From: Verrucomicrobiia bacterium | GTDB taxonomy: Bacteria; Verrucomicrobiota; Verrucomicrobiia; Opitutales; Cerasicoccaceae | DNA length: 64,000 nucleotides | Assembly: GCA_030425485.1 (NCBI GenBank) | Contig: JAUIAM010000016.1 | Coordinates: 1-64,000 of the forward strand | Reading direction: 5' to 3' | In this document: in pieces, positions 3,231 to 49,902 of the stretch | Position numbering within the stretch: the stretch's first letter is position 1 | Layout of the letters: each line of letters opens with the position of its first letter | Notes under the pieces: model-generated | The model's input: the letters and a program-made list of their open reading frames with translations, nothing else | The model's database searches: none | Told to the model about the DNA's origin: nothing | Position numbers and translations under genes: made by a program

Positions 3231-6083
3231 CTAGTCTGGTTTGACGCGGCGTTGGCAGGCCAGGTCGATGACAGCCCGCAGGTGCTTGGTCAGGATGGGT
3301 TTTCCCAAGTGATCGTTCATACCGGCTTCGAGGCATGACTGCTTGTCGTCGCCGTGAGTGTAGGCGGTCAGGGCGCAGATATAAGTGTCGGCTTTATCCT
3401 GTCCGGCTTCGCCACTACGGATGCGCCGCGTGGTTTCCTGCCCGTCCATATCGTCCATCCCGACGTCCATAAAAACGAGGTCAAAGTGTTCCTGCCGGAT
3501 GCACTCAATAGCCTCCTGGCCAGACACCGCGCTCTCGCAACTGTAGCCCATCTGCTTGATGATCTCTTCGAGCAGTTGGCGCGTCTGGTCCTCGTTTTCG
3601 ACGAGCAGAATGTTAAGCTGCTGGTGTGTCTGGGGCCGCTCAGAGGATAGGGCATGGTCGGGCGCGTCGCCCACGGCTTGCGCCTGAATGGTAAAGTAGA
3701 AGGTGGAGCCGCGCCCGGGGATGCTCTCGGCCCAGATATCGCCTTCGAGCAGGTGGCAAATCTTGCGACAGATGGCCAGGCCCAGCCCGGTGCCGCCGTA
3801 GCGGCGGGTGGAGGAAGAGTCTACCTGACTGAACGATTTAAAGAGCTGGTCGAGTTTCTCCTTGGCAATGCCGACGCCGGTATCGCGCACGGCAAAGATG
3901 TAGGTCCAGTTGTCCGAGTCATCGATAGGCTTGCGGGCGGAAACGGTGACGTTGATTTCGCCTTCGTTGGTAAACTTGATGGCGTTGCCCACGAGGTTGA
4001 GCAGGATCTGGCGCAGTTCCAGGTAGTCGGTCCGGAAGAGGTGGGGCAGGCCGTCTTCGACATCGTAGCTCAGCTTGAGGTGCTTGTGCTCGGCATCGAC
4101 GCGCATGGCCTCGTCGACTTCGTTCAGCAGTAAGTCGATGTCCGTGTCGCGTTTTTCCAGCGTGACGAGCCCTGAGTCCAGGCGGCTGTAGTTGAGCACA
4201 TTGTTGATAAGCTCGAGCAGGGCGTAGCCGTTTGACTTAATGATCTCGATGGTTTCGAGCTGCTCTTCGTCATCGGCCAGCTCGCGCAGGAGGTCGGCGA
4301 AGCCGATGATGGAGTTCATCGGTGTGCGGATCTCGTGGCTCATGACGGCGAGAAAGTCGTCCTTGCTCCGGTTGGCGGCGTCGGCGGCCTCCTTTGATGC
4401 CTTGAGCTCTTTTTCGTAGCGGATGCGGTCGGAGATGTCGTTGACGAGCGAGGCTACGCCGACGATGTCGCCTTCTTCATTGGTCAGGGGTGTGTTGTAC
4501 CATTCGCAGGTGATGAGCTCACCGTCCGAGCGGACGTTGTCGTTGGTGCTGTAGAACCCGCCGTCACCGCGGAAGAGGCGCTCGAAGATGTGCTTTACGC
4601 TTTCGCTCATCTTGGGCTCAACGAGGATGCTGTAGGGCTGGCCGATGATGTCATCTTCCTTGTAGCCAAACATGCGCTCAGCAGAGGCGTTCCAGGCTAC
4701 GATGCGGGACTGGAGGTCCCACTCGATACAGGCCAGCGGAGTGCGGTTGACGTGGAGCTTGAGACGTTCCTGAGCCTCGCGGCGCTGTTTCTCGGCATGG
4801 ACGCGGGTGCTGATGTCGCGGCAACAGGCGATGATGCCCACGACTTCCCCGCGGTTGTTTTTCTCCTGACTGAGGGAAAGGTGGGCGTGGAAAGTTGAGC
4901 CGCTGATGCGCCTGAGCTTAGTCTCGATAAAGTGGTTGCCGTGGATGAGCAGGGGCTCGACAAAGTGGCGGTTGACGAAGCCTTCGTCCGGGTCGGGGAG
5001 CAGTTCGGTCAGGCGACGGCCGATGGCGTTCTGCACCGTGCAGTCAAAGAGTGCCTCGGCCTGATGATTCCAGGAGGTGATGTTGCCGTCAATATCTGCC
5101 CCGATCACGGCCTCGCCGAGTTGCTCGACAATGCGGGCCTGGCGCTGCAAGGCGGACTGCGTACGCTCGCGATCGAGTTCCATCTCGGCTCTCGCGGCCA
5201 TGATTTTGAGCACGGAGAGGATGACGTCTGGCTTGGAGAGCGGCTTGCTGTGCATGACACAGAGCAGGCCCGTGGTCTGGTTCTCGTGATTGCGCAGCGG
5301 GACGCCGATGTAGGACTGGGCATTGATCTCCTGAAGCTGCTTGTCCTTGGGGAACTGCTTGCAGACGTCTTCGGGGAAAACACTTGAGGGCTGCGAGATG
5401 AGAAGTTCGCAGGGAGTGTCCTTTATCGAGTACTCGAAGTTGCTCAGGAGGCGCTCCTGGTTTGCGTAGGAAACGCTACGGATGCGCTCTTGTTTGCTGC
5501 CGATGAGCTCACCCATCATGGCGAAGTCCACATCGAGGGCATCGACGATCTGCCGGGTCAGCTCGTGGAAGAATTTGCGTCCGGAGCTGGCGTTGACGGC
5601 CACGGAGACGCGCTTGAGGGCCTGCTCCACGGTTATGCGGGCAGAGTGGGCCCGCTCGTGGTCGACCAGCCGCAGCAGGGTATGGGGCAGGTAGACGAGG
5701 TAGCGCTCCTCCTCGTCGGCTTCGATGTAGTCCTTGAACCCGGCGTGGTAGGCCTTGATGGCGTGCTCGCGGGTGGGCTTACCAGCCATGAGGATGGCTG
5801 GGAGTGCCTCTTCGCTGGCCAGCCATTGCTTAATATCGACCCAATCTTTCTCTGCCAGGGCTGAGTCCTCAATGAGCAGGACATCGTGCTCGGACTCGTG
5901 TTGTTGCAGGTGTTTTCTGACTTCCTCCCATGTCTGCATTTCGCACATGCCAACCGCGGCAGTGCATTCCTCCATGCTGTGCGCGACTTGCCGGCATACC
6001 TTCTGGGAAATACCTACCACCAGTATGCGAATGGGTTTCGAGACGAGCTTGGCCATGGGTGGAAATGCTAAATCAGTGCGCAC
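3231..6083 (-). CDS. Hybrid sensor histidine kinase/response regulator
   Basis: About 950 residues. Order of domains: degenerate receiver-like N-terminus (about 15-130), GAF (about 155-305), PAS (about 315-435), PAS (about 440-560), HisKA with phosphoacceptor His583 in MSHEIRTPMN, HATPase_c (about 660-800, with DTGVGIAKE and GGTGLGLAI boxes), and a C-terminal receiver with phosphoacceptor Asp873 in FMDVGMD and a conserved Lys in LGKPI. No membrane segment is seen, so it is a cytoplasmic sensor. The GTG start at 6083 and an ATG at 6056 (MAKLVSKP) are both possible; neither has a clear ribosome site, and the ATG looks more natural. It has no adjacent regulator. Confidence 0.92.
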   Translation of the reverse strand: MRTDLAFPPMAKLVSKPIRILVVGISQKVCRQVAHSMEECTAAVGMCEMQTWEEVRKHLQQHESEHDVLLIEDSALAEKDWVDIKQWLASEEALPAILMAGKPTREHAIKAYHAGFKDYIEADEEERYLVYLPHTLLRLVDHERAHSARITVEQALKRVSVAVNASSGRKFFHELTRQIVDALDVDFAMMGELIGSKQERIRSVSYANQERLLSNFEYSIKDTPCELLISQPSSVFPEDVCKQFPKDKQLQEINAQSYIGVPLRNHENQTTGLLCVMHSKPLSKPDVILSVLKIMAARAEMELDRERTQSALQRQARIVEQLGEAVIGADIDGNITSWNHQAEALFDCTVQNAIGRRLTELLPDPDEGFVNRHFVEPLLIHGNHFIETKLRRISGSTFHAHLSLSQEKNNRGEVVGIIACCRDISTRVHAEKQRREAQERLKLHVNRTPLACIEWDLQSRIVAWNASAERMFGYKEDDIIGQPYSILVEPKMSESVKHIFERLFRGDGGFYSTNDNVRSDGELITCEWYNTPLTNEEGDIVGVASLVNDISDRIRYEKELKASKEAADAANRSKDDFLAVMSHEIRTPMNSIIGFADLLRELADDEEQLETIEIIKSNGYALLELINNVLNYSRLDSGLVTLEKRDTDIDLLLNEVDEAMRVDAEHKHLKLSYDVEDGLPHLFRTDYLELRQILLNLVGNAIKFTNEGEINVTVSARKPIDDSDNWTYIFAVRDTGVGIAKEKLDQLFKSFSQVDSSSTRRYGGTGLGLAICRKICHLLEGDIWAESIPGRGSTFYFTIQAQAVGDAPDHALSSERPQTHQQLNILLVENEDQTRQLLEEIIKQMGYSCESAVSGQEAIECIRQEHFDLVFMDVGMDDMDGQETTRRIRSGEAGQDKADTYICALTAYTHGDDKQSCLEAGMNDHLGKPILTKHLRAVIDLACQRRVKPD

Positions 6084-16831: not shown

Positions 16832-16937
16832 GCCGGGCTTTGGTTTTCGGTTAATCTCCCCCTGAAAACCTCCTTGCGCCGGGCGTGTGGGTTGGCAAAC
16901 TGGTGCGTTTCATTTTCGCGCCAACATTTTAGAAGAC

Positions 16938-19900
16938 ATGTCCGAGATAGCCAAAGCCTACGAACCGCAAGACGTCGAAACCAAGTGGTATGCTGCCTGG
17001 GAGCAGGCGGGATGTTTCAAGGGAGTGCTGCCTGAGCAGGTTGCACCTGCTGGCACTGAGGGGGCACAGCCCCCTACGGCGCTTGGTGCGCCTACCCCCG
17101 AGCTAAAAAGCGGGGCAGGAGAACCCTTCAGCATCTGCATTCCGCCGCCGAACGTGACGGGCGTGCTGCACATGGGGCACATCCTCAACAACACCGTGCA
17201 GGACATCCTGACCCGCCGTGCGCGGCAGCAGGGCAAGGCCGCCGTGTGGGTGCCGGGGACGGATCACGCGGGCATCGCCACGCAGGCCCGCGTTGAGAAG
17301 GAACTGCGCAAGGAGGGCAAAACCCGCCACGACTTTGGGCGCGAGCAATTTGTCGAAAAAGCCTGCGAGTGGCGCGACGAGCACGGCGGCATTATTTTAA
17401 AACAGCTCAAAAAGCTGGGCGCGTCCTGCGACTGGGACCGCACCGTGCACACGCTCGACCCCGGCTACAGCCGCGCCGTGCTCACGGCCTTCGTCGAACT
17501 CTACCACAAGGGCATGATCTACCGCGGCAAGCGCATGGTCAACTGGTGCCCTGTCAGCCTGACGGCCCTCAGCGACGAGGAAGTCATCATGAAGCCGCAG
17601 AGCGGTAAGCTCTACAAGATGCGCTACGAGATCGCTGAGCGCCCGGGCGAGTTTGTCGAGATTTCCACCACGCGCCCCGAGACCATCATGGGCGACACCG
17701 GGGTGGCTGTCCACCCGGACGACGAGCGCTACAAGCATTTGATTGAAGAGGGCTTGCATGCCGTGCGGCCTTTCCCCGAGGCAAAAATTCCCTTCGTGGC
17801 CGACGAGCATATCGATATGGAGTTCGGCACGGGCGTACTCAAGGTCACCCCGGCGCACGACCGGGCAGATTGGGACATCGGGCAGCGTCACGGCCTGGAG
17901 GTCATCGATGTGCTCACGCCGGACGGCAAGATCAACTGCCCCGAGATGCCCGAGTTGCACGGCAAGGATCGCTTCGAGGCCCGCAAACTGGCGGCCAAGC
18001 TTTTAGAGGAAAAGGGCCTGCTGGTCGAAGCCGAGAACTACTCCAATAACGTCGGCTTCTCCGAGCGCGCAGACGTGCCGATCGAGCCGCGCCTGTCCGA
18101 CCAGTGGTGGCTCAAGTACCCCAAGGTCGAGGAGGCCAAGGAGGCCGTCCGCTCGGGCAAGATCAAGTTTTACCCCGAGCGTTGGGAAAAGGTTTACCTG
18201 CACTGGCTGGACAACATCCAGGACTGGTGCATCAGCCGCCAGCTCTGGTGGGGCCACCGCATCCCCGTCTGGTACAAGAAGGGGATCGACCGCGCCGCGT
18301 TGACCGACGCGGATTTACAGGACGAGACGAAGGTTTTCGTCTCCGTCGATGGCCCCGCCGACCCCGAAAACTGGGAGCAGGAGGAAGACGTCCTCGACAC
18401 CTGGGCCTCGTCATGGCTCTGGCCCTTCGCAACCTTCGGCTGGGCAGGGCAAGGCCCTGCACCCTCGATGCTGACGCATCGTGAGGGGGCGGAGCCCCCT
18501 ACGGCGCTTGATGCGCCTACCCCCGGCGGGGTAGCGACCAGCGGGAGCGTAGGGGCGGCAGCCCCTCAATCGCAGCAAGCCGAGCTTGCTTTCTGGTATC
18601 CGACTGCCGCGCTGGCCACGGGGCCGGACATTATTTTCTTCTGGGTGGCACGCATGATTATGGCGGGCCTGGAGTTCATGGGCGACGTGCCGTTCAAGAC
18701 CGTTTACTTCAACGGCATCATCCGCGACGGCAAGGGGCGTAAGATGTCCAAGTCGCTCGGCAATTCACCGGACCCGCTGGAGCTGATCGAGAAGTTCGGG
18801 GCGGACTCCATGCGTCTGGGCATGCTCATGATCGCGCCCAAGGGGCAGGACGTGCTCTTTGACTTCAAGACCGATCCGCAGACGGGCGAGATCACCGAGT
18901 GCGCCGCCCTGCAACAGGGGCGTAACTTCTGCAACAAGCTCTGGAACGCCTGCCGCTTTCGCCAGATGTCTGACTCACGCAAAGACGCAAAGGCGCAAAG
19001 TGAAAATGAATCCGGTGAAAGTAACTCTCTTAGCGTCTCTGCGGCTCCGCGTGAGAATACTTTAGTAAGCATTCTTCAGAGGCTTGAGCCGGAGAAGTTT
19101 GATGCCGACGACCACGCCATCCTTGGGTCGCTGGTGGCTGCGCTGGACAGCTTCGACAGCAATTTGGGCAAGTACGAGTTCAACCTCGTGACCAAGGTGC
19201 TCTACGACTTTTTCTGGGGTGACTTCTGCGACTGGTACCTGGAGGTATCCAAGGCCAAGATGCAGGACGAGGCCCTGCGCGGCAACTGCCTCGCCATCCA
19301 GGATCTGTGCCTGCGCCAGCTCCTGCTCATGCTCTACCCGATCACGCCGTTCATCACCGAGCAGCTCTGGCAGGACATGGGTTTTGCGGGTGGCACGGCT
19401 GATGGCGGTACGGACTTTATCCACCACTACGACGCCGGCACCAGTGCCGCGCTCAAGGCGCAACTGGCTGAGGCCGGAGTGAAGCTCGACGCGGCGGCCA
19501 TTGAGGAGGTGGACGCGTTGCGGGACTTCGTTTCCAAGGCCCGCGCCATGAAGGCACAGTATAATTTAGCCAACAAGAAGGACGTGACCTTCTTCATCGT
19601 GGCGGACGAGGGCAACCTTGCCGTGGTTGACAGCCACGGCGAGAAGCTCAAGCGGCTGGTCGGCGCGCAGGGCATTGAGCCGCGCGACGACGTGCAGGAC
19701 GCCCCGGCCAGCGTGACCGCGCTCGGCACGCTCTACCTCGACCTCGCCAGCAGCGTGGACACCGAGGCGGAGAAGAAACGCCTGAGCAAGGAGCTGGCCA
19801 AGCTCGAAGGTGCGATCAAAGGCGGCGAGTCCAAGCTGGCCAACGAGAAGTACACCTCCAAGGCGCCCCCGCATCTGGTCGAGGAAACCCGTCAGATGCT

Positions 19901-19958
19901 GGCCGACAACAAGGCCAAGCGCGACGAGCTCCAGCGACTGATTAACTCGCTGGGGTAG
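16938..19958 (+). CDS. valS: Valyl-tRNA synthetase with three in-frame repeat insertions
   Basis: A 1006-residue class I synthetase that charges tRNA-Val and edits Thr-tRNA. The HIGH motif is HMGH at residues 78-81, KMSKS is at 602-606, the editing domain lies between, and the C-terminal coiled-coil arm is present (about 930-1006). The ATG at 16938 is chosen because MSEIAKAYEPQDVETKWY is the usual start. Three segments do not look like ValS: about 33-58, 502-552 and 678-706. They are Ala/Pro/Gly-rich or low complexity and coincide with DNA repeats. The frame stays open through all three, so the gene seems functional but lengthened. Confidence 0.96.
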   Translation: MSEIAKAYEPQDVETKWYAAWEQAGCFKGVLPEQVAPAGTEGAQPPTALGAPTPELKSGAGEPFSICIPPPNVTGVLHMGHILNNTVQDILTRRARQQGKAAVWVPGTDHAGIATQARVEKELRKEGKTRHDFGREQFVEKACEWRDEHGGIILKQLKKLGASCDWDRTVHTLDPGYSRAVLTAFVELYHKGMIYRGKRMVNWCPVSLTALSDEEVIMKPQSGKLYKMRYEIAERPGEFVEISTTRPETIMGDTGVAVHPDDERYKHLIEEGLHAVRPFPEAKIPFVADEHIDMEFGTGVLKVTPAHDRADWDIGQRHGLEVIDVLTPDGKINCPEMPELHGKDRFEARKLAAKLLEEKGLLVEAENYSNNVGFSERADVPIEPRLSDQWWLKYPKVEEAKEAVRSGKIKFYPERWEKVYLHWLDNIQDWCISRQLWWGHRIPVWYKKGIDRAALTDADLQDETKVFVSVDGPADPENWEQEEDVLDTWASSWLWPFATFGWAGQGPAPSMLTHREGAEPPTALDAPTPGGVATSGSVGAAAPQSQQAELAFWYPTAALATGPDIIFFWVARMIMAGLEFMGDVPFKTVYFNGIIRDGKGRKMSKSLGNSPDPLELIEKFGADSMRLGMLMIAPKGQDVLFDFKTDPQTGEITECAALQQGRNFCNKLWNACRFRQMSDSRKDAKAQSENESGESNSLSVSAAPRENTLVSILQRLEPEKFDADDHAILGSLVAALDSFDSNLGKYEFNLVTKVLYDFFWGDFCDWYLEVSKAKMQDEALRGNCLAIQDLCLRQLLLMLYPITPFITEQLWQDMGFAGGTADGGTDFIHHYDAGTSAALKAQLAEAGVKLDAAAIEEVDALRDFVSKARAMKAQYNLANKKDVTFFIVADEGNLAVVDSHGEKLKRLVGAQGIEPRDDVQDAPASVTALGTLYLDLASSVDTEAEKKRLSKELAKLEGAIKGGESKLANEKYTSKAPPHLVEETRQMLADNKAKRDELQRLINSLG
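17024..17092. repeat. Minihairpin array 1, inside valS
   Basis: Short palindromes stand side by side. CCTG-AG-CAGG is followed by GGGGGC-ACA-GCCCCC (17060-17074) and GGCGC-TTGGT-GCGCC (17078-17092). The last two modules recur almost unchanged in array 2 at 18484-18517. The array is read in frame as an Ala/Pro/Gly-rich linker between the N-terminal helix of ValS and its catalytic start. Confidence 0.75.
18444..18590. repeat. Minihairpin array 2, inside valS (seven consecutive palindromes)
   Basis: Seven perfect short palindromes follow one another. Positions are 18444-18460 (GCAGGGC stem, AAG loop), 18466-18481 (CGATGC stem, TGAC loop), 18484-18500 (AGGGGGC stem, GGA loop), 18503-18517 (GGCGC stem, TTGAT loop), 18518-18533 (TACCCC stem, CGGC loop), 18551-18566 (AGGGGC stem, GGCA loop) and 18574-18590 (AGCAAGC stem, CGA loop). 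The whole stretch is translated in frame within the catalytic domain region of ValS, before the block leading to KMSKS. Confidence 0.85.
18974..19055. repeat. CTCACGCAAAGACGCAAAG-type inverted repeat, inside valS
   Basis: The left arm begins CTCACGCAAAGACGCAAAG and the right arm ends with TAGCGTCTCTGCGG...GCGTGAG, an imperfect inverted repeat of about 28 bp per arm around a short centre. Repeats of this CGCAAAGACGCAAAG type are widespread between genes in environmental bacteria. Here it is read in frame as a low-complexity Ser/Glu/Ala-rich loop of ValS near residues 679-706. Confidence 0.7.
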
Positions 19959-20036
19959 TTTTAAGTTACGTCAGTCACAGCGGACACAAAGTAAGCCGAG
20001 AAGATTGAAATCAGACTGGATTTTTCCGCACTAAAC

Positions 20037-20072
20037 GCTTTGTGTGCTTTGTGCTTCTTTGAGCACTTTGTG
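20037..20072. repeat. CTTTGTG-type intergenic repeat
   Basis: CTTTGTGTGCTTTGTGCTTC and a further CACTTTGTG form tandem near-copies, with a partial inverse copy (GACACAAAGTAAGC) at 19983-19996. It fills most of the 135-bp gap between valS and the RidA gene. Confidence 0.5.
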
Positions 20073-20093
20073 ATCCGAACACATTTTCTTTTT

Positions 20094-49169: not shown

Positions 49170-49610
49170 ATGAACTGGACCACGAAAACCCTCAACAAAC
49201 GCGAAGTGCTCGTCAGCGGAGACTTCAGCATCATCCCCTGCAAAAACGGACGCCATCAGTTGCGCGAGTCCGGCAAGATGCGCGGGACCTTCACCGACGC
49301 GGACGCCGCCAAAGCGCATGCCGCCTTCATTATGGACCAGCGTAAGCCACCCGCCCCGAAGCCCGGCGGCAGTTCCTCCGTGCACGCGAAGATCCTCGGC
49401 TTCTCCGCCTGCGCGGCCCTGAAGGCGTTCGGGCGAGCCGGGGTCAAATACCCCGAGGCCGATGCCATCCTCAAGCGCCACGGCATCGAGATGTCCAAGG
49501 CCTCCGTAAGCGTTCAACTGGGCTTCGGGCGCAATGAGCACACCTGGCAGCGCCACGGCCAGCCCGCTCCGCTCACGCCAGAGCAACTCAAGGAACTGGC
49601 AGGGCGATAG
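49170..49610 (+). CDS. Island hypothetical protein
   Basis: A 146-residue protein starting with ATG at 49170. The N-terminal part has short strands (KREVLVSGDFSIIPCKNGRH); the middle is helical (ILGFSACAALKAFGRAGVKY). A longer upstream extension in the same frame overlaps the previous gene and is not supported. Function unknown. The minihairpin array begins 21 bp after its stop. Confidence 0.55.
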   Translation: MNWTTKTLNKREVLVSGDFSIIPCKNGRHQLRESGKMRGTFTDADAAKAHAAFIMDQRKPPAPKPGGSSSVHAKILGFSACAALKAFGRAGVKYPEADAILKRHGIEMSKASVSVQLGFGRNEHTWQRHGQPAPLTPEQLKELAGR

Positions 49611-49631
49611 CTGGTCCAGCCGGACTCCTGC

Positions 49632-49757
49632 ACCTGTGATGCGTTCGCATCACTGATGTCTCCGCTTGGGGCGGAGCCATGGTCATCTCCCCATGGCTTT
49701 GTTTCAGACAAAGCCATCAGTGATCCGAAGGATCACAGGTCAAGGACCTTGTCCTTG
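49632..49757. repeat. Minihairpin array 4 with terminal inverted repeat
   Basis: Six perfect or near-perfect palindromes in a row: 49636-49653 (GTGATGCG stem), 49660-49676 (CTCCGC stem), 49676-49697 (GCCATGG stem), 49694-49716 (TGGCTTTGT stem, 9 bp), 49720-49736 (GTGATCC-GAA-GGATCAC) and 49741-49757 (CAAGGAC-CTT-GTCCTTG). ACCTGTGAT at 49632-49640 and ATCACAGGT at 49732-49740 form an inverted repeat around the first five. Confidence 0.8.
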
Positions 49758-49830
49758 TCGGCACCGCCGATCACATCCGCCGTGTCCGTAAGCAGCGCGA
49801 AAAAGAGTCATAATTACCATCAACTCACTA

Positions 49831-49902
49831 CGGAAGGATGCCCATCCAGGGGGGCATCCTTCCGTGCCTGCTGAAGCAGGAGCCTTGCGGCTTAAGCCGC
49901 AA
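49831..49902. repeat. Minihairpin array 5
   Basis: A 12-bp stem CGGAAGGATGCC (49831-49842)/GGCATCCTTCCG (49853-49864) is followed by CCTGCT-GA-AGCAGG (49867-49880) and the perfect 18-bp palindrome TTGCGGCTTAAGCCGCAA (49885-49902). An outer CCTTGC/GCAAGG pair encloses the last one. Confidence 0.7.

Follow-up and report, generated by a model that had tools for sequence, protein, structure and literature searches.

Can the gene of an essential tRNA synthetase hold, in frame, a whole string of DNA palindromes, and what are these palindromes? The question is raised by valS of a Verrucomicrobiia bacterium, which lies in a 64,000-nucleotide stretch of contig JAUIAM010000016.1 that was analysed as a whole and is referred to below as the window. 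A preliminary description of this stretch reported seven tandem stem-loops translated within valS, adding about 50 residues to the protein, and suggested that they may represent an undescribed class of coding-tolerated palindromic element, with the Rickettsia palindromic element (RPE) as the nearest parallel. Here, we compared the source genome (G000; 3.81 Mb, 62 contigs, 98.2% complete) with the genomes of three congeners (G001–G003) and of six other members of the family (G004–G009).

Results

A hairpin-dense segment in the valyl-tRNA synthetase gene

The open reading frame of valS extends from a GTG at 16887 to 19958, with an ATG at 16938 (Table 1). Its product was identified as valine–tRNA ligase by the NCBIfam models PRK05729 (1016 bits) and TIGR00422 (860 bits), both above their cut-offs, and it is the sole ValS found in the genome: among seven matches, the others listed are 27–32% identical and far weaker. 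All seven palindromes of the preliminary description were refound, with the frame open through them. They fill the 147 nt from 18444 to 18590, inside the valS frame, as exactly seven perfect stem-loops with stems of 5–7 bp and loops of 3–5 nt, one base being common to palindromes 4 and 5. Counted without overlaps, the segment holds six hairpins, and none of 1000 mononucleotide shuffles reached five (maximum four). When 147-nt windows were slid across the 64 kb, at least five hairpins were found only at the valS segment and at 49641–49661. Chance clustering of hairpins in valS is ruled out by the shuffles and the window scan. The region 49601–49850, a second hairpin-dense cluster (five hairpins per 147 nt), contains the tail-like sequence CCTGCACCTGTGATGC..GCATCA.

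The alignment of this ValS to that of Thermus (1gax) breaks exactly at the insertion (query 503/548). The interval between TFGW and FWYPT comprises 49 residues in the source ValS, as compared with 12 in G001, 12 in G002 and 22 in G003. Thus, the figure of about 50 residues describes the length of the segment, but the net gain over the congeners is about 27–37 residues. Both this mid loop and the N-terminal loop of ValS, which bears another copy of the repeat described below, are short in 3/3 congeners, and both insertions are absent there; a conserved ValS domain is ruled out by the congeners' lack of the segment. Absence from related ValS proteins, expected of an insertion, holds within the genus, but beyond it the picture is less simple: the mid loop is short in G004 and long, with unrelated sequence, in G005–G009, i.e., in five of the six other family members. 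It is short in all 16 same-order relatives readable at that place. The variation of the mid loop in length and sequence across the family explains the tolerance of an insertion at this site, which is thus hypervariable and permissive.

The segment consists of two inverted copies of a composite repeat

The alignment of 27 out of 30 copies of the repeat (23 own-genome loci and the window; three degenerate copies were dropped) revealed a consensus order: a GGGGTAG head, the hairpin H0, GTAG-H1 (GGGGC N3 GCCCC), a linker (TCAAT..) and the hairpin H2, followed in some copies by H3. Read with this alignment, the order of palindromes resolves the 147 nt into a left copy on the minus strand, a junction of heads and a right copy on the plus strand. 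In the left copy, H0, H1, H2 and H3 are palindromes 4, 3, 2 and 1, respectively, and in the right copy H0 is imperfect, H1 is palindrome 6 and H2 is palindrome 7. Palindrome 5, with the GTAG ends inside, corresponds to a tail-to-tail dimer in the naming of Di Nocera, De Gregorio and Rocco (PMC3733652, cited here and below from its available portions). The modules described earlier as a string of seven are indeed palindromic, but together they constitute two inverted copies of one composite repeat, not seven elements.

Strong covariance-model matches in the 64 kb occur only inside valS, at 17036–17075 (−) and 18550–18589 (+). The left copy (18483–18523) was recovered by pattern, and the covariance models match it weakly. 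The copy near the valS N-terminus reads VAPAGTEGAQPPTALGAPTP on the plus strand, and the N-termini of 3/3 congeners are without it. A different dispersed repeat, of the CGCAAAGACGCAAAGG.. type, occupies a third loop of ValS; elsewhere in the genome, 11 more short matches to it were found, and the length of this loop varies across the family.

Table 1. Features of valS and of the repeats within it (window coordinates).
Feature	Position	Strand	Evidence or remark
valS, valyl-tRNA synthetase	16938..19958	+	1006 aa from ATG; homology and ORF evidence
Repeat copy 1 (GGGGTAG head at 17098; H0, H1, H2)	17036..17098	-	R2 model, E 1.5e-16
Repeat copy 2 (left copy; head at 18523)	18444..18523	-	Pattern; plus-strand reading ..REGAEPPTALDAPTP
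Palindromes 1-4	18444-18460, 18466-18481, 18484-18500, 18503-18517		Perfect stem-loops
Palindromes 5-7	18517-18534, 18551-18566, 18574-18590		Perfect stem-loops
Palindrome 5, CTACCCC-CGGC-GGGGTAG	18517..18534	.	Junction of two inverted heads
Repeat copy 3 (right copy; head GGGGTAG)	18528..18590	+	Covariance models, E 8.3e-16 and 1.2e-7; reads GVATSGSVGAAAPQSQQAEL
Third length-variable ValS loop, different dispersed repeat (core 18974-19002)	18966..19078	+	11 further matches

Constant and variable hairpins of the repeat

H0 occurs in two forms, CGACC..GGGAGCG, which makes a weak hairpin, and GGCGC..GCGCC. The tag before H1 is GTAG in 25/27 aligned copies and GATG in two, the copies having been collected with a search pattern that favours GTAG. 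In a GATG sub-family (loci L043, L049, L080 and L082), the other arm of H1 is changed to match (GATGGGG..CCCCATC). The A of the tag pairs with a T of H1 (pair 4–19), so that the GTAG tag is not fully unpaired.

The arms of H2 vary, the 81 copies scored in G000 and G001 having 40 different left arms, and yet they are complementary: a hairpin of 6 bp or more begins 5–9 nt past H1 in 28/31 distinct copies with an exact H1. At 5600 positions chosen at random in these sequences, such a hairpin was seen in 1.2%. Two classes of H2 were aligned, and as their rows were selected for a hairpin found by script, the percentages of paired cells, 99.5% in the first class (14 copies) and 85.9% in the second, lean upward. 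In the first class, changes on both sides were seen for five of the seven H2 pairs and in 25 cells, the latter a number that 0/500 shuffles equalled; in the second, five of six pairs show such changes. One of five measures, that of further pair types, was not above the shuffles, being reached by 422/500 (A3) and 47/500 (A4) of them. Stem-loops of 5–13 bp with short loops and complementary changes in the stems, which characterize GTAG-tagged REPs, are thus present, and so are dimers and clusters (the tail-to-tail dimer in valS, and tandem units at several own-genome loci).

A copy in G003 (L253) has the H1–H2–H3 order and the H2–H3 tail of the left valS copy. The tail module GCAGG..CCTGCACC..GAT..ATC was found eight times in own-genome loci and the window and three times in congener loci, and it is absent from 80 ValS loci of other genera.

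The repeat is close to genus-specific

The modules do occur elsewhere in the genome, where we found 28 DNA matches to the valS segment and 34 exact H1 hairpins (reversed pattern, 0). With the covariance model R1 (E ≤ 0.01; scoring limited to the best 150 candidates of each genome, with rough E-values and the seed copies counted), 66 matches were obtained in G000, 42 in G001, 28 in G002 and 28 in G003, and in the rest of the family two in G005 and none in G004 and G006–G009; as R1 and R2 were built from pattern-found copies, the own seed counts are circular, but the matches in congeners are not. In number of copies (66 model matches, 34 exact H1 hairpins), the repeat is like the high-copy GTAG-REP superfamily. 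The exact pattern had any match in only 9 out of 384 genomes of the class, and more than two matches only in G000 (34), G001 (24) and G003 (21); the reversed control gave 0, 4 and 1 in these genomes, respectively, and up to 4 in others. Matches by DNA similarity were present in 5/28 relatives (24 in G000, 10 in G001, and one each in G002, G003 and G005). Taken together, these counts indicate that the repeat is close to genus-specific.

In-frame copies in other genes

An in-frame copy was also found in lpxB (C30:50129–51388). In LpxB, GVATEGSVGAEPLNASGCPPP lies between LPAPHARPSQ and PDVLIL, adding about 24 extra residues; the corresponding empty sites read LPAANSQ-PDLLIL in G001 and LPTPTAR-PDLLII in G003, and the insertion is absent in 8/8 relatives covering this stretch (a ninth starts inside the gene). 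The gene of an FAD oxidoreductase (C49:1914–3179; Pfam DAO over 25–403) contains a reversed copy with further sequence, and here the insertion makes 55 residues, as compared with nine in 9/9 relatives, which are only 35–40% identical and may not be orthologues. As Pfam was applied only to ten stop-to-stop ORFs, all from G000, and 8/10 were without a family, the in-gene copies are a minimum count.

The five coding copies have the same entry frame per orientation, three of them being reversed (..EG(A/L)..) and two forward (GVATxGSVGA). Of the forward frames, frame 0 is most often open in the 37 full copies (18/20 and 13/17), and the reverse frames are free of stops in 6–10 of 17 and 10–14 of 20 copies.

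Copies often abut stop codons or tRNA-Ser ends

Placement was analysed at 55 own-genome loci, with copies filtered for no more than one mismatch per H1 arm and an H2 of at least 5 bp, the last tandem unit taken and identical copies dropped. The last base of H2 lies −3 to +6 nt from the stop of an ORF on the opposite strand (80 codons or more) in 17/47 copies of G000, a few of the 47 being doubtful, and in 13/34 copies of G001; 15 of the 17 fall within −3 to 0. Random positions gave 2.7% (G000) and 3.2% (G001), in a control that ignores stops supplied by the element itself. GTAG-REPs and our repeat are alike in this respect: REPs near gene 3′ ends, and REP termini that give TAG stops, are described in PMC3733652.

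A tRNA scan of seven loci found tRNA-Ser in three, where it is adjoined by repeats at L061:1330–1596, L075:1909–2042 and L106:1508–1640, and in all three the end of H2 adjoins the last base of the tRNA. At L069 and L074, a tRNA-end-like sequence occupies the same place, with no tRNA called. At L061, a unit made up of the repeat, about 14 nt from the end of the tRNA and a spacer appears to be tandemly duplicated.

The search for a mover

The Y1_Tnp domain of Y1/RAYT transposases had 0 matches in G000 and none in G001 or G003, and it was detected in 14/28 genomes searched. Seven Y1 loci of G002, G005 and G009 had no repeat nearby according to R1 and R2, and no GTAG hairpin of our family; the only repeat matches in the Y1-locus set were those at L258, a stretch of G005 chosen for holding the repeat. 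Thus, no cognate RAYT was found among the loci examined. A resident RAYT was rejected as the mover, no Y1 domain having been found in the source genome. The REP–RAYT association is common, though not universal (PMC3733652; PMC8049555, likewise cited from its available portions), and as REPINs persist in E. coli genomes that have no RAYT (PMC8049555), the absence of a RAYT here is no disproof. A Y1 (HUH) transposase acting in trans, since lost or yet to be sampled, may have dispersed the repeat.

Predicted effect on the ValS protein

In the AlphaFold2 prediction (26 ValS proteins), the mean pLDDT of ValS is 84.2. Segments of at least three residues with a pLDDT below 50 are limited to residues 39–50, 53–59, 505–542, 683–688 and 692–704, all of which fall at the two repeat sites or in the third loop, which bears the other repeat, and the block means over residues 511–540 are 31–34. 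The segment is predicted to be disordered, and the inserts would be unstructured parts of a confidently modelled enzyme. The insert in valS is presumably translated. The pairwise dN/dS values of valS, 0.17–0.23 against four relatives, would fit purifying selection on this gene, although a pairwise value cannot date the selection to the time after the insertion.

Discussion

The valS segment is very probably a tail-to-tail pair of copies of a BIME-like REP, made of several hairpins with a GTAG tag and restricted to the genus, that was inserted in a loop of ValS after non-autonomous spread and is tolerated there as a disordered tether. The element would spread as a non-autonomous repeat, giving rise to many copies in the four congeneric genomes, often near gene 3′ ends, and its copies would occasionally land within genes. 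A copy within a gene would survive if the frame is kept, the reading is stop-free and the site is a flexible, length-variable loop. The encoded peptide, rich in Ala, Gly, Pro and Thr, would then protrude from the enzyme as a disordered tether and affect it little, and the insert may be nearly neutral for ValS.

In-frame GTAG-REPs, as singles, dimers and clusters, were already described in 2013 (PMC3733652). The proposed novelty of the class therefore does not hold, and RPEs, though a fair comparison, are not the nearest parallel. According to the same source, Opitutus terrae is the richest in intragenic GTAG repeats, clusters encode 43–82 residues in Thauera and R. conorii, two REP insertions can occur in one ORF, and X. 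oryzae is one of the species with copies in tRNA synthetases. In GTAG-REPs or BIMEs, as in our repeat, a GTAG precedes a short GC-rich hairpin, copies are numerous and form dimers or clusters, enzymes, tRNA synthetases among them, contain in-frame copies, and one gene can bear two insertions; in contrast to them, our repeat has a partly paired tag, and no RAYT was found for it. The comparison with the families GTAG-17, -19 and -20 of O. terrae is one by description (PMC3733652), not by consensus sequences. None of the literature matches listed concerns the repeat itself, PMC3733652 describing the kind. Particular to the repeat are the fixed head-to-tail composite of hairpins, of which the last is hypervariable, the way in which copies exactly adjoin stops and tRNA ends, and the lack of any transposase found. 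In its modularity, it resembles the BOX elements of pneumococcus, which are modular composite repeats, this likeness, too, being by description and not by sequence.

RPEs are similar in that they are in-frame palindromic repeats of many unrelated genes, apparently compatible with function (PMC10969869, in its available portions; PMC3733652). They are about 150 bp long and have a conserved peptide (PMC10969869), and RPE-4 and RPE-6 are CGTC-tagged (PMC3733652), whereas in our repeat GTAG or GATG precedes H1; by description, not alignment, it differs from RPEs as a GTAG/GATG hairpin series of another phylum. REPINs, like our repeat, are short hairpin repeats that form genomic populations, but classical REPINs are linked to RAYTs (PMC8049555), whereas here no RAYT was found and some copies are intragenic.

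Other explanations of the segment were weighed against this one. It could be a lineage-specific functional domain of ValS, such as a tRNA- or partner-binding appendix, with DNA that is palindromic by chance, and the long loops of G005–G009 indicate that long appendices are common in the family. However, its DNA recurs at dozens of other sites, many being extragenic, the three congeners do without it, the loops of other genera are unrelated to it, and its predicted structure is of very low confidence, all of which makes such a domain very improbable. The co-variation of the arms across the family might also reflect an RNA-level element, the hairpins being kept for the regulation of valS mRNA through translation pausing or RNase processing; RNA roles have been proposed for REPs, and copies at gene 3′ ends fit them (PMC3733652). 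We consider this quite unlikely, as the copies in valS are internal and absent from the congeners, the family is also present in LpxB and the DAO protein, and co-variation would equally result from selection on a mobile DNA hairpin. A misjoining of repeats inside valS might be suspected in a draft genome of 62 contigs with a repetitive element. This is extremely improbable, since elements of 60–150 nt are no longer than ordinary reads, the ORF is open across the repeat-bearing loops, each of which is at a family-variable loop, and LpxB shows the same clean pattern.

Two further alternatives concern the nature of the element rather than its presence in valS. Its composite length of 60–150 nt, and the fact that no Y1 transposase was found, would suit a MITE, with inverted repeats at its termini and a DDE transposase as its mover. 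The ends, however, are asymmetric (a GGGGTAG head and a variable hairpin tail), and no common terminal inverted repeat was seen in the 27 aligned copies, so that a MITE is unlikely. There is also a slim chance that the element is a genus-specific composite that needs no Y1 and homes to gene 3′ ends, its distal hairpin being made by snap-back copying at the target, and the in-gene copies being stray ones, spread by a route that is possibly RNA- or replication-linked. This reading is based on distal stems that vary yet remain complementary, and that end at stops and at the last base of tRNA-Ser.

As a REP-type insertion that is specific to its lineage and keeps the frame of an essential gene, the valS segment joins a short list of coding-tolerated palindromic repeats, with one enzyme hit at two sites by one family and by another repeat at a third. 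The host belongs to the group that includes O. terrae. The three congeners with empty sites, the known fold of the enzyme and a testable loop make this locus a clean natural experiment, and it raises the question of how a REP-like family of dozens of copies persists in genomes where a RAYT was not found.

Repeats were also seen just past valS genes. In G001, an H1 copy (L038, near 1445) lies about 40 nt past the end of the valS match, so that there the family reaches this gene in a different manner. In the window, an imperfect inverted repeat, CACAAAG../..CTTTGTG, was seen by eye at 19975–20080, 3′ of valS, and beyond it is an ORF which we take to be RidA-like.
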